A DNA stretch of 64,000 bases from Haloterrigena turkmenica DSM 5511 (lineage in GTDB: Archaea; Halobacteriota; Halobacteria; Halobacteriales; Natrialbaceae), in assembly GCF_000025325.1 (NCBI RefSeq), contig NC_013745.1:124001-188000 (forward strand), read 5' to 3'. How positions within the stretch are numbered: position 1 is the stretch's first letter; each line of letters begins with the position of its first letter. The notes under the pieces are model-generated. The model saw only the letters and a list, made by a program, of their open reading frames with translations, was not told the origin of the DNA and ran no database searches. Positions 130-63,788 of the stretch are shown here, piece by piece. Both the position numbers and the translations under genes were made by a program.

Positions 130-771
130 ATGATTACTGCCTTCACAACTTGGCTCCATTCGCAGAGAGGAGACGATAGCGAACGGGCCGCGAACCTCGG
201 TCTCCAACTCGCTATCGCCACTGCGCTCGTCGAAGGAGTCCATCGGCGCGATCCGAGCGTGATCGTCAACGGTATCGTTTCGCTTCTGTTTGCAGCGATA
301 CCGAAATCTCTCGAGAACAGATACGGTGCTCGTTTCCGGCCGTGGCAACGACTGTGGGTCTCGGGAGCGGCGTTGGTCCACACGCTGGGGATGCTGGGTC
401 CGTACGACCGGATCTGGTGGTGGGATCACCTCGCGCATACGCTATCTGGTGTCGTCGTCGCGGGGGCCACAGATATCTCGTTTCGAGCGGAGGCCGAAAA
501 GGACACCCAAGGAAACTCTTTATCGAAGTCTAGACCGGCAGTGATCGTGGGGATAACACTCGGATTCGGTGTTCTCTGGGAGATACTTGAATACACCATC
601 CACGCAATCGCCGATCGGAAAGGGTTCGAACCGCTGCTCGTTCACTACGGACGACTCGACGCGATCGGAGACATCATCTTTGACCTCTTGGGAGCGGGTC
701 TCGTGGTCCTGTTTGGCCGAGACGGACTCTCCAACGTCACTGAATCGATCACCGACGAGAGCGGCGAATGA
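130..771 (+). CDS. Multi-spanning membrane protein resembling YjdF/DUF2238
   Basis: The 213-residue protein has about six hydrophobic segments (roughly 25-40, 45-60, 75-92, 102-115, 137-155, 183-196). Conserved polar patches WWWDHLAH (96-103), WEILEY (149-154) and GDIIFD (180-185) match the D..H / E..E / GD..D pattern of YjdF/DUF2238-like membrane proteins of unknown function. A second member of the same type lies at 16918-17436. The start is the first ATG after an AT-rich leader. Membrane location is clear; no substrate can be assigned. Confidence 0.8.
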   Translation: MITAFTTWLHSQRGDDSERAANLGLQLAIATALVEGVHRRDPSVIVNGIVSLLFAAIPKSLENRYGARFRPWQRLWVSGAALVHTLGMLGPYDRIWWWDHLAHTLSGVVVAGATDISFRAEAEKDTQGNSLSKSRPAVIVGITLGFGVLWEILEYTIHAIADRKGFEPLLVHYGRLDAIGDIIFDLLGAGLVVLFGRDGLSNVTESITDESGE

Positions 772-29317: not shown

Positions 29318-30643
29318 ATGGAGCCACGAGAGTACGCGATTCTCGGCGGTATCGCGCTCTTGACGGTTGCCATCGGTGTCGTCACCACGACGAAGCCACT
29401 CAGCATATTCTTCATTGAGAGTCTCCGGCAGTTCCTCTCGACGACTGCATCAATGGTCTGGATCACGTGGTGGGCACTGGTCATTGGATTTGCTATCGCC
29501 GGTGGCGTGGAGGCGTGGACCTCCGACGAACAGGTCGCTGATCTCCTCGAAGGGCATAGTCCACGCGAACTCGGCTACGGCTCACTGTTCGGTTTCGTCT
29601 CCTCGTCGTGTTCCTACTCGGCGATAGCGACAGCAAAGAACCTCTTCAAGAAAGGCGGGTCGGCCGCCGCGACCCTCGGGGCATTTATGTTCGCCTCGAC
29701 CAACCTCGTCATCGAGATCGGTGCGGTTATTGTGATACTCCTGGGCTGGCAGTTCTTGGCTGCCGACATCGTTGGTGGGCTCATGCTCATCGGGCTGATG
29801 GCCATCGGATTCGTCTACCTCGTACCCAGCGCCGTGGTCGAGCAGGCCCGCGAGAACGTCCTCGACGAGGGTGGAGAGACGGTCCAGGACCCCGTCTGTG
29901 GCATGGAGATCGATCCCGAGGAAGCGGACTACTCGACCGAACACGACGGGGAGACCTATTACTTCTGCTCGCAGTCCTGCAAGGAGAGCTTCGATCCAGA
30001 GGAAGCTAACACGACCATCCCCGAGCAAGCGACATCGCTGTCTGGGTGGAAAGCGCTGGCGGACAAACAGTGGAAGGAGTGGGGGATGCTCTGGGATGAG
30101 ATTGCCATCGGCTTCATCTTCGCCGGCCTCATCGCTGGATTCATCCCTGAGCAGGTCTGGACCTCGATCTTCTCAGGTCCGACGTTCGGCCTGCCCGTCT
30201 ACGTGTTCTGGACGGCAGTGCTGGGTGCTTTCATCGGCGTGGCCACGTTCGTCTGCTCGGTCGGGAACGTCCCGTTCGCTGCGGTGCTGTTCTCGAACGG
30301 GTTGCCATTCGGGGCCGTACTCTCGTACATCTACGCAGACCTTATCGTCCCCCCGATTATGGACGCCTACCGCGACTATTATGGGACAACGTTTGCTGCC
30401 ATCCTCTCTGGGATGATCTTCGGTTCGGCAGTCATCGTTGGGGTGCTCATCCACTTCATCTTCCTTGGGGCAGGCCTCATCCCGTCTGCATCGAGCGTAC
30501 AGATCGCTGAGGTAAAGATCGAGATGAACTACAAGATGGTACTGAATGTATTCGCCACTGGCCTATTCCTCGTCCTCTACTGGCTACATCGGTCGAGTCC
30601 GATGGAGGAAGGGCACGGCGGGAACATGCAGCCAGCCGATTAA
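29318..30643 (+). CDS. Permease (DUF318/ArsP-type) with an internal YHS domain
   Basis: A 441-residue membrane protein built of two homologous multi-helix halves. Each half has a cysteine-serine motif, SSSCSYSA (96-102) and FVCSVGNVPFA (around 310-320), typical of DUF318 permeases exporting metals or organoarsenicals. Between the halves lies a cytosolic YHS domain (about 190-228: DPVCGMEIDPEEA, then YYFCSQSCKESF) with four cysteines suited to Cu or other soft-metal binding. It stands alone, with no metal sensor next to it. Confidence 0.85.
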   Translation: MEPREYAILGGIALLTVAIGVVTTTKPLSIFFIESLRQFLSTTASMVWITWWALVIGFAIAGGVEAWTSDEQVADLLEGHSPRELGYGSLFGFVSSSCSYSAIATAKNLFKKGGSAAATLGAFMFASTNLVIEIGAVIVILLGWQFLAADIVGGLMLIGLMAIGFVYLVPSAVVEQARENVLDEGGETVQDPVCGMEIDPEEADYSTEHDGETYYFCSQSCKESFDPEEANTTIPEQATSLSGWKALADKQWKEWGMLWDEIAIGFIFAGLIAGFIPEQVWTSIFSGPTFGLPVYVFWTAVLGAFIGVATFVCSVGNVPFAAVLFSNGLPFGAVLSYIYADLIVPPIMDAYRDYYGTTFAAILSGMIFGSAVIVGVLIHFIFLGAGLIPSASSVQIAEVKIEMNYKMVLNVFATGLFLVLYWLHRSSPMEEGHGGNMQPAD

Positions 30644-33831: not shown

Positions 33832-34600
33832 ATCCCGCTCACCCCTCTCAAGTGGGCGAACAACACCGCCTCGCGGTCGCCTAACCTGATGTCTTCCCTA
33901 CCACTCTATGTCCACCACCGTCACGATCGTCCAACCTCACATCTGGCTCCGTTTCCAGTTTGGTCACTCCGAGATCGACAAGCTGGCGTAGCATCCGTCC
34001 AAACACCGACTTCGACGAAGACACTCGGCTGATATTACGCACCCCACCGTAACTACGAGAGCATTCCTCAGCTTTGAATAAGAGCGACTGGGAAAGTCAT
34101 ACAGAGTGAGTTGATCGAATCGATGATCTCAAATCCGCTCTAACCAATAGTACACTCCATCTATAACAGTTTTTCAGACAAAATCACATCTGAAGAATGG
34201 GATTTCAACAAGACCGATTCAGCAGAATTTGAGCCATTCAGATCCACCGTAGTCTTTGGCATAGCAGGGGTAGTGCACCAGCTCGTCTCACGGATTCAGT
34301 ATGGTCTTCTCAAAGTGCGGACTTACTACAGAGGTCGCACTCAGCTGCGTGGTGGGCCTGACAAGTGTTTATGCTTAGAGTCTATAAATTAAACCGATAA
34401 TTCTATGATTCCGACCGATTGGGAATCCGCCATTGATTGATTCACACTGGTACTCAAATGCCATTGATGGCGCAACGATACGTTCACCCACATCTTCAAT
34501 GGGGAGTAATCCTGAATCCCTCTCCTCAGAGAGTCAGCATACTCATTGACTTTCCGTTGTGCGTATGGAGGCATTCATTGGCATGCCACCAGGGCGGTGA
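33832..34600. other. Noncoding stretch upstream of cydA
   Basis: About 770 bases without a supported gene. Bases 34185-34235 (CATCTGAAGAATGGGATTT) match the edge of repeat block B near 38325. An AT-rich TCTATAAATTAAACC near 34380 could be a promoter element but is more than 200 bases from cydA. Confidence 0.4.
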
Positions 34601-34605
34601 TAGCG

Positions 34606-36030
34606 ATGCTTGATCCGGTATTGGCGAGCCGTATCCAGTTTGCTCTCACGGTTATCGTTCACATCATTTTTCCTGTGGTGAGTATGGGGCTTGCGCCGTT
34701 CCTCATCTACTTCACGTGGAAAGATATTCGCTCAGATAATGCTGTTTATGAGCAACTACGCCGCTTTTGGACGCGGATTTTTGCCGTGAGCTTTGCCACT
34801 GGAACCGTGACCGGGCTCGTGCTTGAGTTCGAATTCGGAACGAACTTTGCTGCCTTCTCGACGACTGCAGGTGAACTGTTTGGTGGGCCACTCGCACTCG
34901 AAGGAATGATGGCGTTCATGTTGGAGGCGACCTTTCTCGGTATCTTCGTCTTCGGTCGAGAGCGGGTTTCAGACCGATTGTATTTCTTATCGAGTGTTGC
35001 TGTCGGTCTCGGAACGTGGCTCTCAGCAGTTTGGATCCTCATTGCGAACTCCTGGATGCAGACCCCCCGTGGATTCGAAGTGGTGATGGAAGATGGCCAG
35101 CCGATCGTCCATCTCGTAGATCCGATAGCAGCCTACCTGAACCCCCGATTTCCGTGGATGTTCGTACATATGCAGAACGCGGCTGTTGAATCAGTAGCTC
35201 TTATCATGGCTGGTATCGCTGCGTACTACGTTTTTCGACATCATATCTGGAAATACCCCATTGATAATATCGAATTCTGGGAAAAAACGCTGAAAATCGC
35301 TCTCGTTGCCCTGGTCATCACGGCACCACTCCAAGCGATTCATGGCGATCTCTATGCTCGACATATCGTTGAAACGCAACCACAGAAATTCGCTGCAATG
35401 GAGGCGATCTGGGAGACTGATTCGTACGTTCCCGAATATATCGTTGCTTTCCCAACAAGTATTCAAGATCTCTTGGACCTACGCGCGAAGGAGATTTTCG
35501 GATTCGGAATACCAGGCGGTGCCTCATGGCTTGCCAGCGGCGGTGATCCACAAGCGACGATTCAAGGCCTCAATGAGTTTGAAGGCCCCCAGCCACCTGT
35601 TGCCATCGTCTTCTGGTCGTTCCGAATCATGGTTGCTCTAGGGTTCTGGTTCATTCTGCTTGCGTTCTGGGGCGTCTACCGCTGGTGGCGTGGCGAACTG
35701 TATGAGGATGATCTTCTCCACAAAGCGCTCATGCTCTCTGCACCGTTAGGACTTGTCGCTGTCGAGCTCGGATGGATCGTTACGGAGGTTGGCCGACAAC
35801 CGTGGGTCATTCAAGGTGTGATGAAGACAAGCGATAGTGTCTCACCGGGGCTTACGGGTGCCGAGGCGACGGCTACCCTTGTCGGTTTTGCGATCGTGTA
35901 TCTCTGCTTGTTGACTCTATATACGTATGTTATCGTGCGTATCATCCGTGCCGGTCCACCGGATGGGGACGAACTTACTACGACGGAGAGTTCGTCACCG
36001 CCACAATCCGAGGTGAGTATAGATGACTGA
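34606..36030 (+). CDS. cydA: Cytochrome bd oxidase subunit I
   Basis: A 474-residue membrane protein. H19 (VIVHIIFPVVSMG) matches the high-spin heme ligand region of CydA. ALEGMMAFMLEATFLGIF carries the conserved acidic residues of the proton path, and GRQPWVIQGVMKTSDSVS is the signature near the quinol site. The Q-loop is short, as in non-enterobacterial CydA. With CydB it reduces oxygen at high affinity at the membrane. ATG at 34606 is chosen because H19 then takes its usual position. The cydB ATG overlaps its end. Confidence 0.92.
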   Translation: MLDPVLASRIQFALTVIVHIIFPVVSMGLAPFLIYFTWKDIRSDNAVYEQLRRFWTRIFAVSFATGTVTGLVLEFEFGTNFAAFSTTAGELFGGPLALEGMMAFMLEATFLGIFVFGRERVSDRLYFLSSVAVGLGTWLSAVWILIANSWMQTPRGFEVVMEDGQPIVHLVDPIAAYLNPRFPWMFVHMQNAAVESVALIMAGIAAYYVFRHHIWKYPIDNIEFWEKTLKIALVALVITAPLQAIHGDLYARHIVETQPQKFAAMEAIWETDSYVPEYIVAFPTSIQDLLDLRAKEIFGFGIPGGASWLASGGDPQATIQGLNEFEGPQPPVAIVFWSFRIMVALGFWFILLAFWGVYRWWRGELYEDDLLHKALMLSAPLGLVAVELGWIVTEVGRQPWVIQGVMKTSDSVSPGLTGAEATATLVGFAIVYLCLLTLYTYVIVRIIRAGPPDGDELTTTESSSPPQSEVSIDD

Positions 36031-37024
36031 CGTCGGCACCCTCGCAAGCGACACGCTGTTTGGGCTTCCTCTAGCCGACATCTGGTTTGGACTTGTGTTT
36101 TTCATCCTCGGAATGTTCCTCTTTCTCGATGGATTCGATTTCGGTGTCGGAATCCTGTTTGCGACTCGAGACGATAAACACGAGCGCGAGCAGTTGCTCG
36201 CAGCCATCACGCCGTTTTGGGACGGTAACGAAGTATGGTTGGTTGTGTTCGGCGGCGCATTGTTTGCAGCCTTCCCAGCCGTGTATGCGAATCTGTTCAG
36301 TCGTCACTACTTGCTGATGTTCGCTATTCTTGGGGCACTCATCCTCCGTGGACTTGCACCTGAGATGTACGAACAGCGTGAGGACGAGCCATGGCAAAAG
36401 TGGTGGGGGCGAGCGTTCATCGTCGGAAGCTTCACGGCACCGTTTTTCCTCGGAATATTCATAGCGAACTGGCTGCTCGGTACAACGGCCCTTATTACAC
36501 TGCCAGGAATTGTCGTCGGTCTAATGCTTGTCGCACTGACTGTCGTTGACGGCGTTGCTTTCCTCCGATTAAAGACGCGTAATGAGTTGCGAGACGATGT
36601 CCGAACGGACGGATCTCGAGCTCTTGTCCTGTACCTCATACTAGTCGTACTAACACTGGGTGTCGTTTATATTACTGCACCTGAATTGCGATCGGCCTTG
36701 CTATCGCCCTTAGTTGTGTGCCTTGTCGTTGTGAATCTCGTTCTTACTGGAATCTATGCGGTAGCAACAAGTTCCAATCGCTACTATGAGGCGTTCGTTG
36801 CTAATGCAGGACTCGTTTTTACATTGGTCAGCATTGTTGCCAGTTTGATGTATCCACATATCGATCGTGTTGAAGGGCTGACTGTTGAGGAAGCTATTGT
36901 ATCAACGTTACCGCTTAACATCATGTCAATTGGAGCGGCGCTTCTGTTGCCGCTGATCTTCCTCTACTTTGGCGTCCTTTACTCAGTGTTCAGTGGTCCA
37001 ATAAAGGCAGATGAATCATACTAA
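36023..37024 (+). CDS. cydB: Cytochrome bd oxidase subunit II
   Basis: A 333-residue, eight-to-nine-helix protein: FLFLDGFDFGVGILFATRDD, then TPFWDGNEVWLVVFGGALFA and YANLFSRHYLLMFAILGALI, all standard CydB patches. It overlaps cydA by 8 bases and is followed, with a one-base overlap, by a small membrane protein, so all three form one transcript. Partner of CydA in the quinol oxidase. Confidence 0.92.
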   Translation: MTDVGTLASDTLFGLPLADIWFGLVFFILGMFLFLDGFDFGVGILFATRDDKHEREQLLAAITPFWDGNEVWLVVFGGALFAAFPAVYANLFSRHYLLMFAILGALILRGLAPEMYEQREDEPWQKWWGRAFIVGSFTAPFFLGIFIANWLLGTTALITLPGIVVGLMLVALTVVDGVAFLRLKTRNELRDDVRTDGSRALVLYLILVVLTLGVVYITAPELRSALLSPLVVCLVVVNLVLTGIYAVATSSNRYYEAFVANAGLVFTLVSIVASLMYPHIDRVEGLTVEEAIVSTLPLNIMSIGAALLLPLIFLYFGVLYSVFSGPIKADESY

Positions 37025-49615: not shown

Positions 49616-51076
49616 TTACTCGCCGGGTGTGCCGTCGGATCCGTCGCCGTAGTCGATGTTGACGGTTTTGAGTTGGGTGTAGTGATCGATCGCCTGCATT
49701 CCCTTCTCGCGGCCGAGCCCGCTCTTCTTGTAGCCGCCGAAGGGTGTCTGCGGGTACGAGCCGGAGTACTGATTGACCATTACGCTGCCGGCCTCAATTT
49801 CGTTCGCAACGCGGTGGCCACGTCCGAGATCGTTCGTCCAGACCGTCGCGTAGAGACCAAACTCAGTGTCGTTGGCCCGCCGAATCGTCTCCCGTTCGTC
49901 CGAAAACTCGTAGAGGGCGATGACCGGACCGAATACCTCCTCACAAGATATTGGTGCGTCGTCGTCAGCCCCTTCGATTACCGTCGGCTCGTAGAAGTAC
50001 CCTTCACGGTCAGGTACCGATCCACCGGTCAGTGCGCTCGCACCGTTCTCGAGGGCGTCGTCGACGTACCCTCGTACCTTTTCGAGACCGTCGTTGGAGA
50101 CGAGGGGGCCGAGATCGCGATCTTCAATTCCCGGCCCGATCGAAATCGATTCGACGGCTTCGCGGAGTGCTTCGCGGAATTCGTCATAGCAGCCCTGATG
50201 AACGAAGATCCGCGTCGTCGCGAAACAGACCTGCCCACTCATCAGCGTCAGCGCCTTCATCGCCCCCTCAACGGCGTCTTCGAGATTAGCATCCTCGAAG
50301 ACGATTGCCGGACTCTTGCCACCGAGCTCGAGGGCCGTCGGAACCACGTTGTCGATTGCGGCCTTACCGACGATCTGGCCGGTCGCCACCGAACCAGTGA
50401 ACGTGATCTCGTCGATTCGCGGATCGGTAGTGAGCGCGGCACCGGTCGTCTCGCCGTCGCCGGTGACCACGTTGAGAACGCCGTCGGGGATTCCCGCTTC
50501 GGTGGCGAGTTCGCCGATCTCCAACAGCCCAAGCGGGGCTTCCGGTGCGGGTTTGACGACGACTGCGTTTCCGGCTGCGAGCGCAGGTCCAATCCCACGA
50601 CAGCAAAGTAGGATCGGAGCGTTCCACGGAATGACCTGGGCACTTACCCCGACTGGTTCCTTTCGTGTGAACGCCTGTTGGTCGCCGGGGACAGGAATTG
50701 TCTCCCCTTGAATTTTCGTCGTCATGCCCGCGTAGTATTCGATGTAGTCGGCAGCGCTACTGACGAGTCCTACCGACTGCCCGATCGGCCGACCGTTTTC
50801 CAGCGTGACGGTCTTGCTGATATCGTCGACACGTTCCCGAATCGCCTCGGCGAACGCCGACAGGTGCTGGCCTCGTTCGGCTGGATCCATCGCCGCCCAC
50901 TCTGGCTGAGCACGTTTTGCGGACGTGATAGCATCGCCGACGCCTCCTTCGCTGGCCTCGGCGACGGTCGCAATCGATGAGCCGGTCGCCGGATTCTCGA
51001 CGTCGAACGTCTCGGCACCGTCTCGAAATTTTCCGTCGATAAACACTCCATAGTGATCGGATTGCTCCCCTTGCAT
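49616..51076 (-). CDS. NAD(P)-dependent aldehyde dehydrogenase
   Basis: A 486-residue enzyme of the ALDH superfamily oxidising aldehydes to acids. Catalytic C284 (MSGQVCFATTR), general base E250 (TALELGGKSP), oxyanion N152 (IPWNAP) and the cofactor loop FTGSVATG are intact. Length is normal. A perfect 21-bp palindrome spans the start codon. The cupin, three THI5-like genes and the VOC gene nearby suggest it handles a small aldehyde in the same pathway, which is an inference. Confidence 0.92.
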   Translation of the reverse strand: MQGEQSDHYGVFIDGKFRDGAETFDVENPATGSSIATVAEASEGGVGDAITSAKRAQPEWAAMDPAERGQHLSAFAEAIRERVDDISKTVTLENGRPIGQSVGLVSSAADYIEYYAGMTTKIQGETIPVPGDQQAFTRKEPVGVSAQVIPWNAPILLCCRGIGPALAAGNAVVVKPAPEAPLGLLEIGELATEAGIPDGVLNVVTGDGETTGAALTTDPRIDEITFTGSVATGQIVGKAAIDNVVPTALELGGKSPAIVFEDANLEDAVEGAMKALTLMSGQVCFATTRIFVHQGCYDEFREALREAVESISIGPGIEDRDLGPLVSNDGLEKVRGYVDDALENGASALTGGSVPDREGYFYEPTVIEGADDDAPISCEEVFGPVIALYEFSDERETIRRANDTEFGLYATVWTNDLGRGHRVANEIEAGSVMVNQYSGSYPQTPFGGYKKSGLGREKGMQAIDHYTQLKTVNIDYGDGSDGTPGE

Positions 51077-51815: not shown

Positions 51816-52712
51816 ATGACAGACAATGACACGCTTCGCGTGTTTCACCTCCCCTTCTCGTTCATGTTGCCGCAGCGAGTCGCGGCCGAGCGGGGGTACT
51901 TCGCAGAGCACGGACTCGATGTCGAACTGATCGAGCGCGATCGGCGACGCGTCGACTGGAAGTACGTCCCTGGGGACGGAACCCTGACCGGAGACCAGGA
52001 CGTGGATCTGTACCCGGTCTGCAAGTGGGAGAGCCTCCGCCGGACGTGGTCGCTCGAGGACGGTCGGATCGTCGCTCACGGCGCGTTCGCGGACCTTCCG
52101 TACACGTTTCACACGCGACCGGAGACGGATATCGACGGACCGGCCGACCTGGCGAACGTCCCCATCGCGGTCAATCGGCGGACCGGCCAGGAGTACACGG
52201 CGATCCGGGCGCTTGAGGAGCACCTCGAGTCGGACGAAATCGAACTCGAACACCACGGAATGCCGACCAACCGGCTCCGAGCCCTCCGGGACGGAACGGT
52301 CGAGGCCGTGACGCTGCTCGATCCCCACAGCGCGCTCGCGGATCGGCTCGGACTACAGCGAATCTTCGAATTCGAAAATCACGTCGGAATCGTTGGAACC
52401 GACGGCCTCGACGGCGCGGCGTTCGACGCGTTCATGGACGCCTACGGCCGCGCCGTCGAGGAGATCAACGAGGAGCCGTCCGCGTTCCGTCAGCAGTACC
52501 TCGAGATGCTCGAGAAGGACTGCGAGGTCGCACCCGACCTCTTCGAGGACGTCGACGTGTTGGCCATCCGCGATTCGGTGACCGTTCCGGAGTACGAAGT
52601 TCCCGAACCCGTCGACTCCGGGGACCTTGAGGGCCACCTCGATTGGATGAAAGAGCGAGAGCTGATCGACGAGGACGCGGAGATCGACACGATCGTCGCA
52701 CCCGTCCGCTAG
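51816..52712 (+). CDS. NMT1/THI5-like ligand-binding protein 1
   Basis: A 298-residue protein with the periplasmic-binding-type fold signature FMLPQRVAAERGYFAEHGLD followed by VELIERDRRRVDWKYVPGDG, DLANVPIAVNRRTGQEYTAI and a C-terminal lid. It has no signal peptide or lipobox, so it is cytosolic, and no ABC permease or ATPase gene follows. It could be an enzyme like Thi5 or a small-molecule sensor. First gene of a four-gene operon. Confidence 0.8.
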   Translation: MTDNDTLRVFHLPFSFMLPQRVAAERGYFAEHGLDVELIERDRRRVDWKYVPGDGTLTGDQDVDLYPVCKWESLRRTWSLEDGRIVAHGAFADLPYTFHTRPETDIDGPADLANVPIAVNRRTGQEYTAIRALEEHLESDEIELEHHGMPTNRLRALRDGTVEAVTLLDPHSALADRLGLQRIFEFENHVGIVGTDGLDGAAFDAFMDAYGRAVEEINEEPSAFRQQYLEMLEKDCEVAPDLFEDVDVLAIRDSVTVPEYEVPEPVDSGDLEGHLDWMKERELIDEDAEIDTIVAPVR

Positions 52713-52716
52713 AGCC

Positions 52717-53703
52717 ATGGATATCGACACTCAGCAGTCGGCACTGGACGAACTGCATGCCGATCCCGGGGAGTTGCCCGTAATGCGCGCCCGGTTCGAG
52801 CACAATGGCAGCCCGCGGTACATGCTGTACACGATCAAGCGGTTCGGCTTCGACCGCGACCACGGCTTCCACCTCGACGTGGAACTCGTTTCGGACGAAC
52901 TCGAGGGCGGAATCGAGACGGTCGAGGCAAAGCTCCACGAGGGTGACGCGGATCTGATCGACATCGACTACATCTCGGCGGCTCGTGAGCGGGTCAACGG
53001 CGCGCCGATCGTCGCGTTTCACCCCTACGGGCGGACCGTCGGCGGTCTCGTCGTTCCCGAGGCGTCGTCGATCGAGGGGCTGACCGACCTCCGCGACTGC
53101 CGCGTCGGCGTCGTCCGACGTCTGGACAAGAACTGGATCCTCACGCGGGCCGCCTGTCTCGAGTATCACGGCTTCGACCCCGAGGCAGAGGCGACATCGG
53201 TCGAGTCCGAATCGAAGGTCGAACTCACACGGATGCTGCGCGACGGCGACGTCGACGCTGCACTGCAGTTCTGGCAGATCATTCCCGAGATCGTCGAGAC
53301 CGGGCCGTACCGCGAGGTGATTCCGATGGCGGATCTGGTCCAGCGGCTCTCCGGCGCCGATCGAACGCTGCCGATCTCGACGTTCCTCACGAGCGAGTCG
53401 TACCTCTCCGAGACTCCCGAGGCCGTTCGCGGCTTCAAGCGAGCGTACGTCGACGCGGTCGAGCGGCTCCGGACCGACGACGAATTCTGGGACGAACTCG
53501 GCGAGCGGATGATGTATGAGGACGATCCCGCGGTCGTCCGCGACGGATGGCGAGAGATGGTCGTCGCCGACTGGGACGTGGAGACGACTGCGGCAATGGA
53601 GCAACTGTTCGACCACTTGCTTGAGGTCGCAGGTCCGGACGCGCTCGGTGTCGACCGCATTCCGGATGACCTGTTCCAACTGGAGGTGCCCCAGCCACAA
53701 TGA
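52717..53703 (+). CDS. NMT1/THI5-like ligand-binding protein 2
   Basis: A 328-residue protein 4 bases after gene 1 and overlapping gene 3 by 4 bases. The domain order is the same: TIKRFGFDRDHGFHLDVELV, IETVEAKLHEGDADLIDIDY, VGGLVVPEASSIEGLTDLRD and DAALQFWQIIPEIVETGPYR. No export signal. Similar to 4,5-dihydroxyphthalate-decarboxylase/THI5-type ABC-binding folds. Pathway unknown; the tight packing implies a stoichiometric partnership with proteins 1 and 3. Confidence 0.8.
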   Translation: MDIDTQQSALDELHADPGELPVMRARFEHNGSPRYMLYTIKRFGFDRDHGFHLDVELVSDELEGGIETVEAKLHEGDADLIDIDYISAARERVNGAPIVAFHPYGRTVGGLVVPEASSIEGLTDLRDCRVGVVRRLDKNWILTRAACLEYHGFDPEAEATSVESESKVELTRMLRDGDVDAALQFWQIIPEIVETGPYREVIPMADLVQRLSGADRTLPISTFLTSESYLSETPEAVRGFKRAYVDAVERLRTDDEFWDELGERMMYEDDPAVVRDGWREMVVADWDVETTAAMEQLFDHLLEVAGPDALGVDRIPDDLFQLEVPQPQ

Positions 53704-54671
53704 CAACCACGACCATCGACTTTCAGCTCAACTGGGAGCCAAACGGGTTCCAGGCGCCGTACTTCTTCGCCCGCGAACGGGGGTTCTACGACGAGGAGGG
53801 GCTCGACGTACGCTTCGTCGAGGGACACGGCTCGCCGTTCGCCGCGGAGCAGGCTGCGAAGGGACGCGCGGAGTTCGCGCTGGCGGGTGCGAGCGCCGTC
53901 CTCTCGGTCCGGAGCCGCGGCCTCGAGCCGCTCGCCGTCGCCGCCGTCACGGGGAAGACGCCGGCGGCGATCTACACGCTGCAGGACATCTTCGGCGAGC
54001 CCCTCGAGCGTCCGGGTCAACTCGTCGGCCGGACGATTGCCCCCTCGGCGACGAAGACGCGCATCCTGACGGCCCAACTGCTCGAGAACGAGGGGATCCG
54101 GGACGATGTCGAGTTGCTCGAGGTCGACGACCACACCCACCACCGCGTCCAGCACAAGGTGCTCGACGGCGCGGTCGACGCCGCCGTGGGTGTCGTTACG
54201 AACGGCTACGAACTCGAACGTGAACACGACCGGACGGCCGACGAACTCCCGATCGGAAACCACCTCGACGTCTACGGGATGACGATCGTGAGCGATCCCG
54301 ACTTCGCTCGTGCCGAGCCGGAGACGGTCCGCGCGTTCCTGCGCGCGACGGCCCGCGGCTGGGAAGCAGCGACGGCCGACCCGGAGGAGGCGGTCGACTG
54401 CCTCGTCGAGCGCAACGCCACGCTTGAGCGGAACCGGCCCGTCGAGGAGCGGAAGTTCCGGACCGCCGCGACTGAACTCCAGTTTACCGATCGGGTCCGC
54501 CGGTCCGGCTGGGGGCTCCACGACGGCGTCCGGTGGCGGACGCTCGGAGAGACCCTCGCCGAGACGGATCTGCTCGAGGGGGAGATCGATCCGGACGTGG
54601 TCTGGACCAACGAGTTCGTCGACACGGACGCGGACGTCGTCCGAAACTACGTGGATCGAGTGGGTGCCTGA
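53700..54671 (+). CDS. NMT1/THI5-like ligand-binding protein 3
   Basis: A 323-residue protein and the clearest PF09084 member: DFQLNWEPNGFQAPYFFARE, FYDEEGLDVRFVEGHGSPFA, then LVGRTIAPSATKTRILTAQL. The yeast Thi5 CCCFC motif is absent. No signal peptide. Its ATG overlaps the stop of protein 2, and the VOC gene follows 2 bases later. It may bind a pyrimidine, amine or aromatic ligand in the cytosol. Confidence 0.85.
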   Translation: MTTTTIDFQLNWEPNGFQAPYFFARERGFYDEEGLDVRFVEGHGSPFAAEQAAKGRAEFALAGASAVLSVRSRGLEPLAVAAVTGKTPAAIYTLQDIFGEPLERPGQLVGRTIAPSATKTRILTAQLLENEGIRDDVELLEVDDHTHHRVQHKVLDGAVDAAVGVVTNGYELEREHDRTADELPIGNHLDVYGMTIVSDPDFARAEPETVRAFLRATARGWEAATADPEEAVDCLVERNATLERNRPVEERKFRTAATELQFTDRVRRSGWGLHDGVRWRTLGETLAETDLLEGEIDPDVVWTNEFVDTDADVVRNYVDRVGA

Positions 54672-54673
54672 GG

Positions 54674-55102
54674 ATGGAGGCCGTCGATCATATCAACGTC
54701 AACGTCGACGACCTCGAGTCCTGCTACACGTTCTACCGTGACGCGCTCGGACTCGAGGTGGTACGCGATCCCGACGATTTCCAGGGCGAACACGCGATGT
54801 TCCGGGCAGGCGAAACCGTCGTTACGCTGGCCGAAACCGGTCGCGGCGAGCGGTGGGACGAGCGCGGTCTCGATCACCCGCTAGATAAGGCGCACCTCGC
54901 CTTCAAGACCGACCGGGACGAGTACGAGTCGCTGATGGACGATCTCGACGACCAGTTCCCGAATCAGGGGCCCTACGACTGGGACGAGTTCGAGGGGTTC
55001 TACTTCCTCGATCCGAGCGGCAATCTGCTCGAGGTAATTACCTATGAGCCCCCAACGGGCGAACAGGAGCGGTCGCTGCTCACGCACGACGACGTCGAGT
55101 AG
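54674..55102 (+). CDS. VOC-family (glyoxalase/dioxygenase) protein
   Basis: A 142-residue protein with two beta-alpha-beta modules: VDHINVNVDDLESCYTFYRD (metal His at VDHI), LDKAHLAFKTDRDEYESLMD (H in AHLAF), and GFYFLDPSGNLLEVITYEP with the terminal Glu (LLEV). H/H/E can hold a divalent metal. The family includes glyoxalase I, extradiol dioxygenases and resistance proteins. Last gene of the THI5-like operon. Confidence 0.88.
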   Translation: MEAVDHINVNVDDLESCYTFYRDALGLEVVRDPDDFQGEHAMFRAGETVVTLAETGRGERWDERGLDHPLDKAHLAFKTDRDEYESLMDDLDDQFPNQGPYDWDEFEGFYFLDPSGNLLEVITYEPPTGEQERSLLTHDDVE

Positions 55103-56358: not shown

Positions 56359-56781
56359 GCGGAGGCAGTGCCGAACGTGTTGAGGAGATCCGTTCGAGAA
56401 GTGCGACTGTTACTTCTGTCAGGATCTAGGTCATATGCAGTACTCTAAATCCTACAGAGTTGTCTGAGACAGCGCTTGCTGCTCGAGGAACTTCGTGATG
56501 TCGTCTGTGGAACAGACAATGAGTGAGACGGTGGTCCGGTGGATCCGGGGCGGGTACTGTTCTAGCTGTCGACCTGTAGACATTGATCGACGAGCCCGAC
56601 GTAGCTCCACGGTCAAAGTGGCCGCTCGGTTGACCTGACGTCCAGAGACAGGATACCGAGACGGCAGTCTCGATCAGACTGGAGATCAAACAGACAGAGA
56701 TCACTGAGACTGCGGGGATTGCAGAACCGACAGCGAGTTCGTGGGGACCTTGAGGCCAAGATCCAGTATCAGATGAAACGG
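56359..56781. other. Noncoding stretch with a short HTH-regulator tail
   Basis: Bases 56452-56490 (CTGAGACAGCGCTTGCTGCTCGAGG, quoted in part as GAGACAGCGCTTGCTGCT) repeat the last 13 codons of HTH copy 2 on the minus strand. Nothing else recognisable lies in the remaining 290 bases. Confidence 0.5.
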
Positions 56782-57981
56782 TCAGCCGAGCCGGCTGATC
56801 ACTGCGCTCTCGAGTTCGTTGCGGACCTGACGGGCGATCGGACGCGGGTCGTCGAGGTGGAGATAATCGAAGCAAGGGTCGTTGTAACACGAGCGTAGGA
56901 TCTCGGCCGCGCGTCCTGGCAACGAGGGGCGCTCGACGAACGGGGACTCCTCACGGACGATACTGACGAGGTGTTCCAGCTCGCCGTACAGATAGTGCGT
57001 ACTGACGCCAGTCTCGTAGCGAGGATTGATTAGTCCGGGGCGATCGGTAACTGCATACCAGTACCAAGCAGGGAAATCCGCCCCCGCACGGGTCGCACAG
57101 GCCAGCGACTGCCACATCCGCGGGTTGATCTCGACGATGTTGAACTCACCAGTTTCGGCATCCTCGACATACTCGATACAGGCCAGCCCGTGCCACTCGA
57201 GTTCATCGAGGATCGCCCGGCCAGCTTCCTCAAGTTCGGGAATGTCAACCGACTCGCGATAGACGCCGCCGCTACCGGTGTAGGAATCTCCCCGTAGCTG
57301 TTTGTGCTGGAAAGTCCCGAGGGGTTCGCCATGGTCGTACAGCGCTCCGAAGAGGTACTCCTCGCCATCGATGTATTCCTGAACAATCGGTTCATGGCCC
57401 ATCTTCTCGACGAGTGCGTCGATGTCAGGCGTCTCGCCTGCAGGGATGTGCTCAACCGATTTGGCGATTCCGGAATCTTCGAACGCCATGTCCTCAAGGT
57501 ACTCGTCAGTGAGTAGGTTATACCGGGATTTGACGATCCGGTTACCGCTCCAGTCGGAGACCTCGCCGAGCAGTTGCGTATCTGGGATTGCCACGTCCGC
57601 CCGAGCGGCCGCCTCCGCGAGGTGCTTCCGGTCGTGGACGCCCCGCAGCCTCTCGAGGTCTGGGACGACGACGTCGGTGTGGCGGTCGAACTCGTCGGCG
57701 AACTTCGAGAGAAGGTACGTGTCGTGTGGTCGGTGGGGGATAATCGTTCTGACGTCTGGCCGAGCGGCCAGTCCCAGTAGCGAATCCTTGTACGCTGGGA
57801 GGTCGCTCGGCGCCGGAACTAGCACCGATTCGTCGCAGTACCGGGAGGTTGTGACGCTCAAAGACTCGTCAGCGACCGCGGCGATCGTGTGCAGGCCACA
57901 GTCAGCCAGCGAACGGATCGAAGCGTATCCGTGGGGGTACCGCGAGGCGGTGACGACGACTGCGTCGCGCTCAGCAGACAT
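56782..57981 (-). CDS. ATP-grasp carboxylate-amine ligase
   Basis: A 399-residue protein. The N-terminal Rossmann part is AERDAVVVTASRYPHGYASI; the ATP-grasp domain includes PIVQEYIDGEEYLFGALYDH, GLACIEYVEDAETGEFNIVE and INPRMWQSLACATRAGADFP (metal-binding E and N-x-R). These enzymes join a carboxylate to an amine via acyl phosphate. It overlaps the upstream asparagine-synthetase-like gene by 11 bases, so the two are coupled. The substrate is probably a surface-polymer or small peptide-like compound (inference). Confidence 0.88.
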   Translation of the reverse strand: MSAERDAVVVTASRYPHGYASIRSLADCGLHTIAAVADESLSVTTSRYCDESVLVPAPSDLPAYKDSLLGLAARPDVRTIIPHRPHDTYLLSKFADEFDRHTDVVVPDLERLRGVHDRKHLAEAAARADVAIPDTQLLGEVSDWSGNRIVKSRYNLLTDEYLEDMAFEDSGIAKSVEHIPAGETPDIDALVEKMGHEPIVQEYIDGEEYLFGALYDHGEPLGTFQHKQLRGDSYTGSGGVYRESVDIPELEEAGRAILDELEWHGLACIEYVEDAETGEFNIVEINPRMWQSLACATRAGADFPAWYWYAVTDRPGLINPRYETGVSTHYLYGELEHLVSIVREESPFVERPSLPGRAAEILRSCYNDPCFDYLHLDDPRPIARQVRNELESAVISRLG

Positions 57982-59893
57982 CGTCGAACTCCCCCTTCTC
58001 GAGCGACCAAAAACTGGAGTCTGTTACGTCGGTTTTCTGCGTGCGATCTGTTTCGGGTTCGAGAATGCGTTTCGTGACTGGCATCGTTAGTAGTGTCAAC
58101 AGCGTGTATAGTTCGCCGACGCGGTTTTGGCCGCGCAGGTGGGTACGGTACCGGTCGTCAATTCCGTCAGCGTCGAGGCCGGGGAGCCCGTCGGCGAGGT
58201 TGGCAGTTTGTTCGAAGACGTTCCCCGCGAACGGCTCCGAGCGGAGCAGTTCGGCGTCGTCCAGCCAGGGACCGTTGGTTAGGTATGGCTTCGGTGATGT
58301 CTGGTTGCGAATGTGTTTGTCCCACAGCTCCAGCAGATGTCTGCCAGCGTATTTGATCGGGAACGATCGTGAGAGCGCGACACCGGTGGTTGCGTGGGGG
58401 ATCGCTGCCAGGTCGGGCGCAAGACGATCGACCGCCTGCCCGATAAGATCCCGTCGAAGTCGGTATCGGACCGGCATCGACAGAGAGAGGTCGATAATAC
58501 GGTTATCGAGAAACGGCGACTGGTAGGGAAGCATCCGGTGGAGATCGGTATGGAACCGCAGGTCGTCGTCGTTCGAGAGCGGATAGCAGTTGCCGTAGTA
58601 GACGAGTTCGTTGAGGGAGTTGTACGTGACACCGTGGTGGATGATTTGCTCGCCCTCTCGGTAAATATTCGCCTCGAGGATCGACTGGAGATCCGTCGAG
58701 GTGGGAAGATCGTCGTGGGCCGATTCGAGCAGCAAATTGATGTATTCGTCGACCGTCTCGATCGATTGCTCGATCGGCACCGTTACCGACCCGAGCGGGC
58801 CGACTGACACTGTCGGAGAAGGGACGCCATAGTCATGGAACAGTGAGTCGGCATACAGTCCCGACAAGAGTCCGTCGACTCGGTTGGTGATCTCTGTCTC
58901 GAATCCGCTAGTGTAGGGCTGGGAGAACCAGCCGTTGAACGAGCCAGCCCATCGGTTGCGCTTGAGGGCGTTGATCCGGTATTGGGCCCCTCGGTCGAGT
59001 ACCTCGAAGTCAACGCCGGCCTCGAGGGCGACCCGTTCAGCGATGCGGGCCTCGCGATTCATCCAGTCGTTCATGTGAAACGCAGTCGCATCCTCGAGGG
59101 CGGCTAGAACGAGCCGCGAGTCTCGACCCCCCGAAAGCAAGACGCCGTACTCGTAGTCGTCGCGGGTCCACTCGTCGACGACTGTACGGAACCGACGCAC
59201 GAACTCGTCGACGAACCACTCAAAGGACTCGTCGCGCGGGCAATACTCGGGCCGCCAGTACTGGTCGCTCTGAGTCGCACCGTCGACTAGCGAAATGGTC
59301 GTGATCGTACCCGGCTGGAGTTTCTCGACACCCTCGAGAGGAGTCGTCACCCCGAATGTGCGCCGAAAGGCAAGATATTCGTGGAGGTACGCCGGGTCGA
59401 AGGCGGTATCAACGTCCGGGTGGTACGGAAGAAATTGGATATTCGTCGAGAAGACGATTGTCTCCTCGTCCGGCCGTGTCCAATAGAGTGGCACTGTCCC
59501 GAACCGGTCAGTACAAAGAGCGAGGCGATCGTGCTCACGATCATAGATCAGGAGTGTGAATGCGCCGTTGAGGCCGTTGACGAAGCGCAGTCCGTCGCGC
59601 TGGTACAGCGACGCACAGTACTGTGCAGGGTCAACATTGGCAGACCGTGTCCTGTATCCACCGGGTTCGCCAATGGCACTCGCGTCATAGCCATATATAT
59701 CGCCAATCAGCCAGCAACGGACCGACTCATCGCCGTCGCAGGACTGGCTTGCGGTGTAACACCGACCTGGATCGGCCGTGAGTGCCACGTCCTCGGTCAC
59801 ATGCCGAATACCGTCGTCAGATAAATACCATTCCTCTAGTTTGTCACCCAATTCCGTTCCATGAATGTTAATAATACCGTATATGCCTTCCAT
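57971..59893 (-). CDS. Asparagine-synthetase-like amidotransferase lacking the glutaminase Cys
   Basis: A 640-residue protein with an Ntn-type N-terminal domain and a synthetase domain. The start is MEGIYGIIN: E replaces the Cys2 nucleophile of AsnB (MCGI), so glutamine cannot be hydrolysed. The rest of that domain is conserved (FVNGLNGAFTLLIYDREHDR, then TDRFGTVPLYW). The PP-loop SGGRDS (254-259) for AMP-forming activation is intact. It probably uses free ammonia or another amine, or makes a lactam, as beta-lactam synthetases do. Confidence 0.85.
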   Translation of the reverse strand: MEGIYGIINIHGTELGDKLEEWYLSDDGIRHVTEDVALTADPGRCYTASQSCDGDESVRCWLIGDIYGYDASAIGEPGGYRTRSANVDPAQYCASLYQRDGLRFVNGLNGAFTLLIYDREHDRLALCTDRFGTVPLYWTRPDEETIVFSTNIQFLPYHPDVDTAFDPAYLHEYLAFRRTFGVTTPLEGVEKLQPGTITTISLVDGATQSDQYWRPEYCPRDESFEWFVDEFVRRFRTVVDEWTRDDYEYGVLLSGGRDSRLVLAALEDATAFHMNDWMNREARIAERVALEAGVDFEVLDRGAQYRINALKRNRWAGSFNGWFSQPYTSGFETEITNRVDGLLSGLYADSLFHDYGVPSPTVSVGPLGSVTVPIEQSIETVDEYINLLLESAHDDLPTSTDLQSILEANIYREGEQIIHHGVTYNSLNELVYYGNCYPLSNDDDLRFHTDLHRMLPYQSPFLDNRIIDLSLSMPVRYRLRRDLIGQAVDRLAPDLAAIPHATTGVALSRSFPIKYAGRHLLELWDKHIRNQTSPKPYLTNGPWLDDAELLRSEPFAGNVFEQTANLADGLPGLDADGIDDRYRTHLRGQNRVGELYTLLTLLTMPVTKRILEPETDRTQKTDVTDSSFWSLEKGEFDDVC

Positions 59894-60640
59894 TATTATT
59901 TAATTTTAATTGCTATTATCGAGATGAGTAATTCAAAACTGTATTCTTAGGGTTAGTTCTTCACATCTCTCCCGGATAAGTAGTTCAATCGTCATCATTT
60001 TCAGAGATAGTCAACTCACTAGGTCTAAGTCAGCAATTCTGTTCTGATGGGGTTGTTATTGACGGCTTAACTACACTATCCGGGCAGGAATTTGTGATTT
60101 CGCTTGTTTAAAATCAGACAATAGTTAGAAATATCTATATTATCTATATAGGATACCTCTGGGTTGGGGAGACGCTAACCTCTACTCGGCAACCAACCAG
60201 CAGGCGTCGAAGGTGCAACAGCAGAAAGAACCCTTTATCTACTTACCGCTGAACTCCTGAGAGTCTCAATAGAGCCAGCGAATCCCTAACCAGCTCACGA
60301 GGACCGACCGCCCTAAGTTGTGACTGTGGAACTTAAGAATCTGGGATCAGAACGCTTCCCCTGCTATATCTCTATCTTGTGCCGGGAACCACTTAAAGAG
60401 AAATCTCGTTTCGGTGTGTTTTTCCCGATTCTACTGAAAGTCACAGTCATCAGAGGCACGCTGGTCACTATCAGCGTATTCTCCCCTTGGCTGATCAGCC
60501 GGCTTTGCATATACGGATTGTATAGATACAATCCCGAGGGCTAATTGCCTGAGTTGCGACTACCAACTTTAGAACATTGGTGAGAACACTTCCCCTGCTA
60601 TATCTCCACCTTGTGACCAGAAGTACTTAAAGAATGAGCG
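59894..60640. other. AT-rich noncoding stretch with a direct repeat
   Basis: No gene is seen for about 750 bases. About 85 bases at 60316-60402 recur imperfectly at 60548-60634; both contain CTTCCCCTGCTATATCTC and ACTTAAAGA. The AT-rich run at 59890-59935 is a likely promoter for the reverse-strand operon. Confidence 0.5.
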
Positions 60641-61432: not shown

Positions 61433-62392
61433 ATGAAAGAGAATCATGCCGATGATCCAGTTAGTGTGGATGAGAGGACAACCAATGTCGATGTATCTCG
61501 TCGCCGACTGTTACGCGGGGGAAGCCTCCTAGGCGTGGGGAGCCTGTTTGGGGTGACTGGAGGAGGAGTAGATCGTACGGTAGCGGAAGAAATAGAGAGT
61601 GCGGCCGGAGGCGGCTGTAATCGGCCGGAGGAGGTCGTTCATCTCAAGTACGGAGAGTATGAGAACTGGGAGGACATCTATTGGATGTCCAATGGTGATC
61701 GTGAGAACCTTGCAATTGTCCCCAGCCCAACCTACGCTGGCGATACCGCTCTCCAACTTCGGGTTCAGGACGGCGATCATTGGGGGCTCAGTACCCACTA
61801 TGACTTTGATGACGGCCTCCTCGAGCTCAATGGCCGTGTCGCTTTCGCTCTTAATACGAGTTGGTCGATGAGAACTGAGAGTGAACACTGTCGGCTCTGG
61901 AACTGTGCCATGTCGCTTGGGGAGGGGAGTGCCGGTGGCGGTGTCCCTGATGGCACCAATGGGTGGAGTAACCGCCTCTATGTCAGTACAAAAGAAACCG
62001 ATCTAGATGGGCCGTTCCATCTGCTCTCCTATACATACCATATGGACCAGAATCAAGATCATGACTTTCTCCTTCACGGGGAACCCTACGCCGTGCGACA
62101 GCCAGAGATCGTTCCGGGGCAGTGGTACGAATTCGAGTATTATGTCTGTATGAATACAGTCGACGACAATGGCGTGGCAAATTCGGATGGCGTCATCCAG
62201 TACTGGCTCGATGGCGATCTCATCTATGAGCGGAGCGATCTGAGGTTCACAGAAGACCACGAAACCAATATCATCGAAACAAATGGTCCTGTTGGGTACT
62301 ACGGTGGGAGGTACGTGACTCCACAAAATCTCTACTCCTATTATGCCAATCACTCAATGGCCCTCAATGGGACGTTCGGAGACGGGTGCTGA
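61433..62392 (+). CDS. Tat-exported polysaccharide-lyase-like protein
   Basis: A 319-residue precursor with Tat signal VSRRRLLRGGSLLGVGSLFG. The mature part has a jelly-roll-type pattern: WGLSTHYDFDDGLLELNGRV, GGVPDGTNGWSNRLYVSTKE, HLLSYTYHMDQNQDHDFLLH, GQWYEFEYYVCMNTVDDNG and YWLDGDLIYERSDLRF. These strands resemble PL14/PL20-type polysaccharide lyases. No lipobox, so it is probably secreted. A deacetylase gene follows on the opposite strand, which suggests a surface glycan target. Confidence 0.7.
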   Translation: MKENHADDPVSVDERTTNVDVSRRRLLRGGSLLGVGSLFGVTGGGVDRTVAEEIESAAGGGCNRPEEVVHLKYGEYENWEDIYWMSNGDRENLAIVPSPTYAGDTALQLRVQDGDHWGLSTHYDFDDGLLELNGRVAFALNTSWSMRTESEHCRLWNCAMSLGEGSAGGGVPDGTNGWSNRLYVSTKETDLDGPFHLLSYTYHMDQNQDHDFLLHGEPYAVRQPEIVPGQWYEFEYYVCMNTVDDNGVANSDGVIQYWLDGDLIYERSDLRFTEDHETNIIETNGPVGYYGGRYVTPQNLYSYYANHSMALNGTFGDGC

Positions 62393-62717: not shown

Positions 62718-63788
62718 CTACTCACCTGCGTTTCGACTGATCGCCTCTTCAAACGTGATTGCTTCAATCCCAAGCTCATTGCACCACTCAAGTGTTTCCG
62801 CGATGCGATCCTGTGTCACTTCCTCGCGGTGGGTGTGGGCACCAAGAACGCCATATACATTCTCTTCAGCGATCTGTGTGAGGTCAGCATAGACCTGATC
62901 TCGATCGACGTGTTCGGCAAAGTACGCTCGGTTCGTGTCGAATGGATCAAACGGGATATCGTTCACTGGTGTACCGGAGTTCACATTCAACACGCCCTCG
63001 TAGTACTCACGGACGATATCGAGGTGCCGATCATCAATGACATTGTGCGGGGCTAAAAACGTCGTTGGGCCGAATTCTGCTAACGCCTTCTGCGAATCGG
63101 CGAGCTGCTTGTGGACGAACGGTTCCGTATACCGCTCGACTGTCTCTTCAGCTGTGAACGCGGTATTGATCGGCTCGTCAAGTTCTAAGTAGCGCCCAAT
63201 ATCGTCGTCATCCGACTCAACAACCGTCCGCTGTACAAGCTTCTCTCCATCAGTGACTTCAATTGGATCCCCCAGCAAGAACCCGTGCTGCCCTCGTCCT
63301 TCGGGATAGATACGGTTATCGCCCGGTGACACGTCCTCAACGAGGTCGAACGAGGTGAGCGCTACATGGGTGGCTGTGTGTGACGCAATTTCCCAGCCAG
63401 CATCAACGAGTCTCGTCACCTCGTCAACATTCATCCACCTCTCGTCGTTCCGTTCCATCCACTCGGAGACGATGCCGACTGTAGCTGGCGCGTCGTACGT
63501 CTCATGCGCTGGAAATGCTTGTTCTAGATCGTCGTTCGGTCCATCATCGTAGATAAATGTAACCGCTCCATTCTCGAACCACTCATCTTCAGCTGCATCT
63601 TTCGACGCGTCATCACTAGCATTGCTGACCTGATCAGAATCAGCCTTGTCGGGAGAAGATACGGAATCACTTCCAGTGTTGCCATTCTCAGTAGCGTCAG
63701 AACGAAAACATCCGGCTATACTGGCAATTCCGAGGGTCGCAGTCCGCCGCAGAACCGTTCTCCGTCCCACCGGTTTAGAGTCAACCAT
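62718..63788 (-). CDS. Polysaccharide deacetylase, Tat lipoprotein
   Basis: A 356-residue precursor: twin-arginine GRRTVLRRTATLGIASIAG with lipobox Cys (IAGC), a Ser/Asp-rich linker (about 30-68), then a NodB-like carbohydrate esterase domain. Catalytic FIYDDGP (Asp-Asp) and SHTATH (His-x3-His) are present, and GVLGAHTHREEVTQDRIAET closes the barrel. It removes acetyl groups from surface polysaccharide, lipid-anchored outside the membrane. Together with the lyase-like protein it indicates glycan remodelling. Confidence 0.88.
   Translation of the reverse strand: MVDSKPVGRRTVLRRTATLGIASIAGCFRSDATENGNTGSDSVSSPDKADSDQVSNASDDASKDAAEDEWFENGAVTFIYDDGPNDDLEQAFPAHETYDAPATVGIVSEWMERNDERWMNVDEVTRLVDAGWEIASHTATHVALTSFDLVEDVSPGDNRIYPEGRGQHGFLLGDPIEVTDGEKLVQRTVVESDDDDIGRYLELDEPINTAFTAEETVERYTEPFVHKQLADSQKALAEFGPTTFLAPHNVIDDRHLDIVREYYEGVLNVNSGTPVNDIPFDPFDTNRAYFAEHVDRDQVYADLTQIAEENVYGVLGAHTHREEVTQDRIAETLEWCNELGIEAITFEEAISRNAGE

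Follow-up and report, generated by a model that had tools for sequence, protein, structure and literature searches.

The window analysed here is a 64,000-nucleotide stretch of the genome of Haloterrigena turkmenica DSM 5511. Two overlapping genes in it encode a protein resembling asparagine synthetase B (AsnB-like) and an ATP-grasp ligase (Table 1). The AsnB-like ORF begins with MEGIYGIINIHG; the MEGIYG start, the PP-loop SGGRDS and the 11-base overlap with the ligase gene are all present on the ORFs as the initial annotation had described them. The open frame, of 642 aa, extends upstream of the ATG by only two codons, which fixes the start and rules out an alternative upstream one that would restore Cys2. 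Two Pfam families score above their cut-offs in the product, GATase_7 at 45.2 bits and Asn_synthase at 34.4 bits. The NCBIfam model TIGR01536 yields 92 bits against a cut-off of 267.1.

Table 1. Features of the AsnB-like/ATP-grasp locus, in window positions.
Feature	Position	Strand	Basis
Conserved 3.45-kb island: the two genes with flanks of about 285 bp (upstream) and 57 bp (downstream)	56725..60178		blastn
ATP-grasp ligase gene, 399 aa	56782..57981	minus	ORF, conserved residues, clade support
Overlap of the two reading frames, exactly 11 bases	57971..57981	minus	both ORFs
AsnB-like protein gene, 640 aa	57971..59893	minus	ORF with ATG start, Pfam, AlphaFold model
His500, aligned with the catalytic Lys of AsnB and beta-lactam synthetase (RxKxGF)	58394..58396	minus	alignment
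SGLYADSL, residues 344-351, equivalent of AsnB SGEGSDE	58841..58864	minus	alignment
PP-loop SGGRDS with Arg260 (replacing the canonical Ser)	59114..59134	minus	130-row alignment
Codon 2 (GAA, Glu), at the glutaminase Cys position	59888..59890	minus	family alignment, column 2
AsnB-like domains: degenerate Ntn glutaminase, residues ~1-215; PP-loop synthetase, residues ~216-612			

AsnB-like homologs at about 29-94% identity are found throughout the Halobacteriales, in a search that covered 392 genomes of this order and named genome contigs. Comparison with Haloterrigena salina gives dN/dS values of about 0.26 for the AsnB-like gene and 0.22 for the ATP-grasp gene, and of about 0.2 for the synthetase domain of the former. 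Both genes are under purifying selection. This and the breadth of the distribution indicate that the feature is more than a product of chance. The same genome carries a separate canonical asparagine synthetase with an MCGI start. Literature searches on the Cys-less haloarchaeal AsnB-like family found no paper.

An AlphaFold model of the AsnB-like protein has a mean pLDDT of 89.6. Its structural matches (VIA Z scores, over 419-510 residues; Foldseek was also run) are TsnB9 at Z 25.2, AsnB at 23.3, beta-lactam synthetase at 23.1 and carbapenam synthetase at 22.0. TsnB9, a hydroxyamidotransferase of the trichostatin pathway, is the best of these, matching over 510 residues at 15% identity, but its lead over AsnB and beta-lactam synthetase is only about 2 Z units, and its host domain and context differ. 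Alignment to AsnB with hhalign has a probability of 100 over 554 columns. Because the model matches these enzymes, the protein is predicted to keep both domains of the class; the PP-loop and a PFLD segment are also common to it and to E. coli AsnB (PF00733 plus a class II GATase). Beta-lactam and carbapenam synthetases share with it an AsnB fold with a dead glutaminase, but the sequence similarity is weak. Those enzymes keep the catalytic Lys, and we know of no ATP-grasp partner for them.

Residues of the AsnB-like protein were equated with those of AsnB by sequence alignment, using a published list for the E. coli enzyme (PMC4659947). Cys is absent from position 2 in all 130 family rows, which come from two overlapping collections with some near-identical members and so are not a count of independent sequences, and present in 7 of 7 canonical AsnB rows. 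The family column includes Val (72 rows), Arg (10), Thr (10) and Ser (8). The closest relatives, at 94% identity in H. salina and another congener, start with MNGTYG and thus have Asn at this position; other near relatives start with MRYTHG, MGNTHG or MSHTHG, and most of the family with M-V-G-L/I. Glu2 is therefore private to the window sequence and incidental, and the loss of Cys2 is family-wide. Equivalents of two further AsnB residues are missing. The column of Asn74, the oxyanion Asn (NGE-x-Y-N), holds Trp, Leu, Ile or Val, and that of Asp98 holds Ser, Pro, Thr or Ala. Residues 1-57 evolve fastest (identity to H. salina is 81% there and 94-96% in the rest of the protein), as one would expect of a glutaminase pocket freed from constraint. 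The loss of the nucleophile that the initial annotation inferred from one sequence thus extends to the whole family, where it is real and old.

The same annotation described the PP-loop of the synthetase half as intact. The loop is indeed S-G-G-x-D-S in 130 of 130 rows, but other parts of this half have changed. The residue that follows the loop is Arg in every family row, in place of the Ser found in all seven canonical sequences. The acidic residues of the AsnB segment SGEGSDE are replaced by Leu346 and Ser350, and Asp349 is kept. Across the family SG[E/D]GxDE becomes SG[L/H/M]YxD[S/T/M], so that the Asp alone is retained and the equivalents of Glu348 and Glu352 are lost, the latter to Ser, Thr or Met. 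The column of AsnB Lys449 is His in 122 of 130 rows and Lys in 7 of 7 canonical rows, an equivalence taken from the MAFFT L-INS-i alignment and motif order, since hhalign puts a gap at the Lys region. No haloarchaeal member has the RxKxGF motif, which most outgroup rows do have. Invariant or nearly so in the family are R260, H273, E281, R301, D349, R465, H500 and H585. The changes look like replacement, not drift. This rewired site, which the initial annotation did not mention, is a more unusual feature than Glu2. In AsnB this Lys contacts the aspartyl-AMP intermediate; without it, and without the equivalent of Glu352, the synthetase half may have lost the ability to adenylate a substrate.

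The 399-aa partner reaches ATP-grasp families in Pfam below the cut-off only (PF15632 at 28.3 bits, against 29.1). All 16 sequences compared have the conserved ATP-grasp residues K151-SRYN, K174, E202, E270 and E284-x-NPR. The Foldseek matches are ATP-grasp enzymes, but the model has a pLDDT of only 64, so the closest solved relatives are uncertain. In the 392 genomes, 18 of 18 matches at 61% identity or more adjoin an AsnB-like gene. Two more genomes also pair a close ATP-grasp with an AsnB-like gene, giving 20 linked genes in all. More distant ATP-grasp paralogs are widespread and located elsewhere. A tree of 40 ATP-grasps unites the 20 linked genes in a single clade with support of 100/100. 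The initial annotation's partner is thus an evolutionarily stable one, retained by nearly all close relatives, though not across the wider AsnB-like family.

In most Natrialbaceae the two genes overlap on one strand, an order also seen in the homologs of Haloterrigena, Natronococcus, Natronolimnohabitans and Halostagnicola, and the overlapping genes are likely to be translationally coupled. In Halorussus the genes are adjacent and share a strand; in Haladaptatus, Halobium and HArc-gm2 they are arranged tail to tail. Three Natronococcus paralogs within the Natrialbaceae clade have no ATP-grasp partner in the stretch examined. Phylogenetic reconstruction of the AsnB-like family (support as SH-aLRT only) places the ATP-grasp-linked genes in at least four lineages; of the five changes needed, strongly supported branches force four. 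The genes may have been paired ancestrally, with the pairing lost several times, or they may have moved together; both histories imply a joint function.

The island that contains both genes is 93.5% identical by blastn to the loci of H. salina and a congener, and homology stops at its two ends. Beyond it, no other DNA is shared with the two congeneric loci in the 20-kb neighbourhoods compared. A search around the island for terminal repeats, as at transposon ends, gave none that were convincing. A reading as a defence system was dropped, since PADLOC gave no hit.

Most members of the wider family lack an ATP-grasp. The gene next to the AsnB-like gene was counted by eye in 61 loci, whose genes were called with a codon-usage-based caller. 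It is an ATP-grasp in 15. In about 16 it is a type I phosphodiesterase followed by a FemAB protein (PF13480, TIGR03019-like) and sometimes by a DegT-type aminotransferase. In about 11 it is a second AsnB-like protein without Cys2 (MNKELFGVFG). The three kinds of partner do not co-occur at the adjacent position. FemAB and ATP-grasp folds both form amide bonds, which makes amide chemistry the common denominator of these partners. The proximity to a TIGR03019-like FemAB recalls the XrtA/PEP-CTERM system, in which the amidotransferase TIGR03108 occurs with FemAB TIGR03019, but the scores are below the cut-offs, the host is archaeal and no FemAB adjoins the window cassette.

The phosphodiesterase-FemAB module recurs in loci L050-L063, L083, L086 and L087, often with a DegT aminotransferase and Wzx. 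The second Cys-less family lies directly downstream in L067 (10692-12623), L065, L069, L071-L073, L075-L077 and L080. One branch of the AsnB-like family (L093, 9130-14288; L092 and L094) lies beside genes for a histamine N-monooxygenase-like enzyme (TIGR04439, 425 bits against a cut-off of 700), a GNAT protein (PF13523) and an ABC transporter, possibly a haloarchaeal hydroxamate-type siderophore locus. A family member of about 36% identity with an MNDFCG start is found on a contig binned as Salinivenus (Rhodothermota; L154), either through horizontal transfer or through a binning error.

The AsnB-like protein is best placed as a glutamine-independent amide-forming enzyme paired with an ATP-grasp. 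Its dead glutaminase means that it should use an amine not derived from glutamine, or free ammonia, and its retained PP-loop that it should still use ATP. Our preferred reading, held at a little below an even chance, is that the two genes are a mobile cassette, probably co-translated, for a pathway that forms amides independently of glutamine and in which the AsnB-like chemistry has been rebuilt. For this pair we infer a catalytic activity, a division between AMP and phosphate chemistry, an order of steps, a substrate and a product along the following lines. The AsnB-like protein would most likely activate a carboxylate with ATP as the acyl-AMP and join it to an amine other than glutamine-released ammonia, with catalysis rebuilt around Arg260 and His500, both specific to the family, where AsnB relies on its Lys. 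A further amide or peptide bond would be made by the ATP-grasp by way of an acyl phosphate, either to prepare the substrate of the AsnB-like enzyme or to extend that enzyme's product. The simplest scheme would be two successive amide-forming steps, one by each route. A small compound of amino-acid-like or amino-sugar type is the probable substrate, and in some lineages it may be a building block of a surface polysaccharide. None of the neighbours of the cassette identifies it.

AsnB-fold enzymes without the glutaminase Cys are usually amide-forming catalysts of natural-product pathways. The archaeal family adds to this loss a changed catalytic Lys and, in one branch, a dedicated ATP-grasp clade. 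The two proteins side by side suggest an undescribed two-enzyme route to an amide bond. It is also quite possible, if somewhat less likely than not, that the family as a whole has replaced both its glutaminase and its catalytic Lys chemistry and forms interchangeable two-enzyme modules (with the ATP-grasp, with phosphodiesterase-FemAB-aminotransferase, or with the second Cys-less AsnB-like protein) that make undescribed amide-linked metabolites or surface polymers. To our knowledge, little is known of haloarchaeal metabolite and surface-polymer biosynthesis, and the cassette points to amide chemistry in such compounds. As a defined two-gene unit without other conserved genes, it can be deleted or expressed to find its product.

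An unlikely alternative, yet the strongest of those considered, is that the specific task of the cassette is to modify a polysaccharide of the cell surface or a polymer of the wall, with amidation of uronic acids or attachment of amino acids to amino sugars as examples. Glycan genes are enriched around AsnB-like loci: two or more families occur at 24 of the 61, which are not phylogenetically independent, against 2 of 40 control stretches taken at arbitrary positions in the same set of genomes. The AsnB-like gene of Halorussus ruber and a GT2 gene overlap, with further glycosyltransferases and beta-helix proteins nearby. Paralogous ATP-grasps occur with genes for FemAB, phosphodiesterase, Wzx and UDP-sugar dehydrogenase-like proteins. 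Several Natronococci, which have a glutaminylglycan wall (PMC4243693), carry the cassette, but so do many other genera. Moreover, only 2 of the 15 ATP-grasp-linked loci lie among glycan genes; the cassettes in such clusters are those of Halorussus and Halobium, and the window locus is not one of them. The window does hold an exported polysaccharide-lyase-like protein (61433-62392, below the Pfam cut-off) and a polysaccharide deacetylase-domain ORF (62718-63788). These genes, 1.5-4 kb away, are not part of the cassette, since homology to the congeneric loci ends before them, and they are absent from the loci of its 94% relatives. A surface-glycan cluster was thus rejected as the conserved context of the window cassette, although it holds for parts of the wider family. 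Of what the initial annotation proposed, the two-enzyme amide-forming cassette stands as the best reading, whereas the nearby surface-glycan genes do not travel with it, which reduces uronic-acid amidation at this locus to a guess.

Replacement of the AsnB Lys also leaves room for a reading in which the ATP-grasp is the sole catalyst and the AsnB-like protein, a pseudoenzyme or nucleotide-sensing scaffold, serves as its regulator or chaperone. The glutaminase residues are gone, key synthetase residues are replaced and those of the ATP-grasp are conserved. The PP-loop, however, is universal in the family, the old residues have given way to new invariant ones and not to drift, the synthetase domain is constrained (dN/dS about 0.2), and most family members have no ATP-grasp to serve. 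We consider this reading improbable.

A highly improbable alternative is an osmolyte cassette analogous to N-acetylglutaminylglutamine amide (NAGGN) synthesis, which employs AsnO and an ATP-grasp/GNAT ligase. The AsnO model TIGR03104 is the best NCBIfam match of the AsnB-like protein (E 5.5e-30), the same enzyme classes are paired, and the cassette is free-standing, of two genes and found in halophiles. Nevertheless the score is 104.1 bits against a cut-off of 570.1, the ATP-grasp has neither a GNAT domain nor a match to the NAGGN synthetase model, and ordinary nitrogen transfer from glutamine is impossible for a Cys-less protein.

Lasso cyclases are likewise Cys-less AsnB homologs, and there is a weak match to NF033535 (50 bits, against 525). 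A RiPP macrolactam cyclase of this type is nonetheless largely refuted and scarcely credible, as the partner is an ATP-grasp, the B2 leader peptidase (PF13471) is missing from the genome, and in relatives PF13471 is found only weakly, inside proteins of 740-1000 aa. The single residue is all that speaks for a recent point mutation in an ordinary asparagine synthetase, or for its decay; both are refuted by the family-wide absence of Cys2, with no intact homolog in such a cluster, by the separate canonical AsnB and by purifying selection.

Other genes were noted elsewhere in the window. Three tandem NMT1/THI5-like proteins of the solute-binding type, whose genes overlap or nearly do so, are encoded at 51816-54671 on the plus strand and have no signal peptide obvious by eye. 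Behind them follows a glyoxalase-family gene (54674-55102); upstream there are an aldehyde dehydrogenase gene (49616-51076, minus strand) and a cupin-like ORF. The window also encodes subunits I and II of a cytochrome bd oxidase at 34546-37024 and, at 29318-30643, an ArsP-type permease containing an internal YHS domain.
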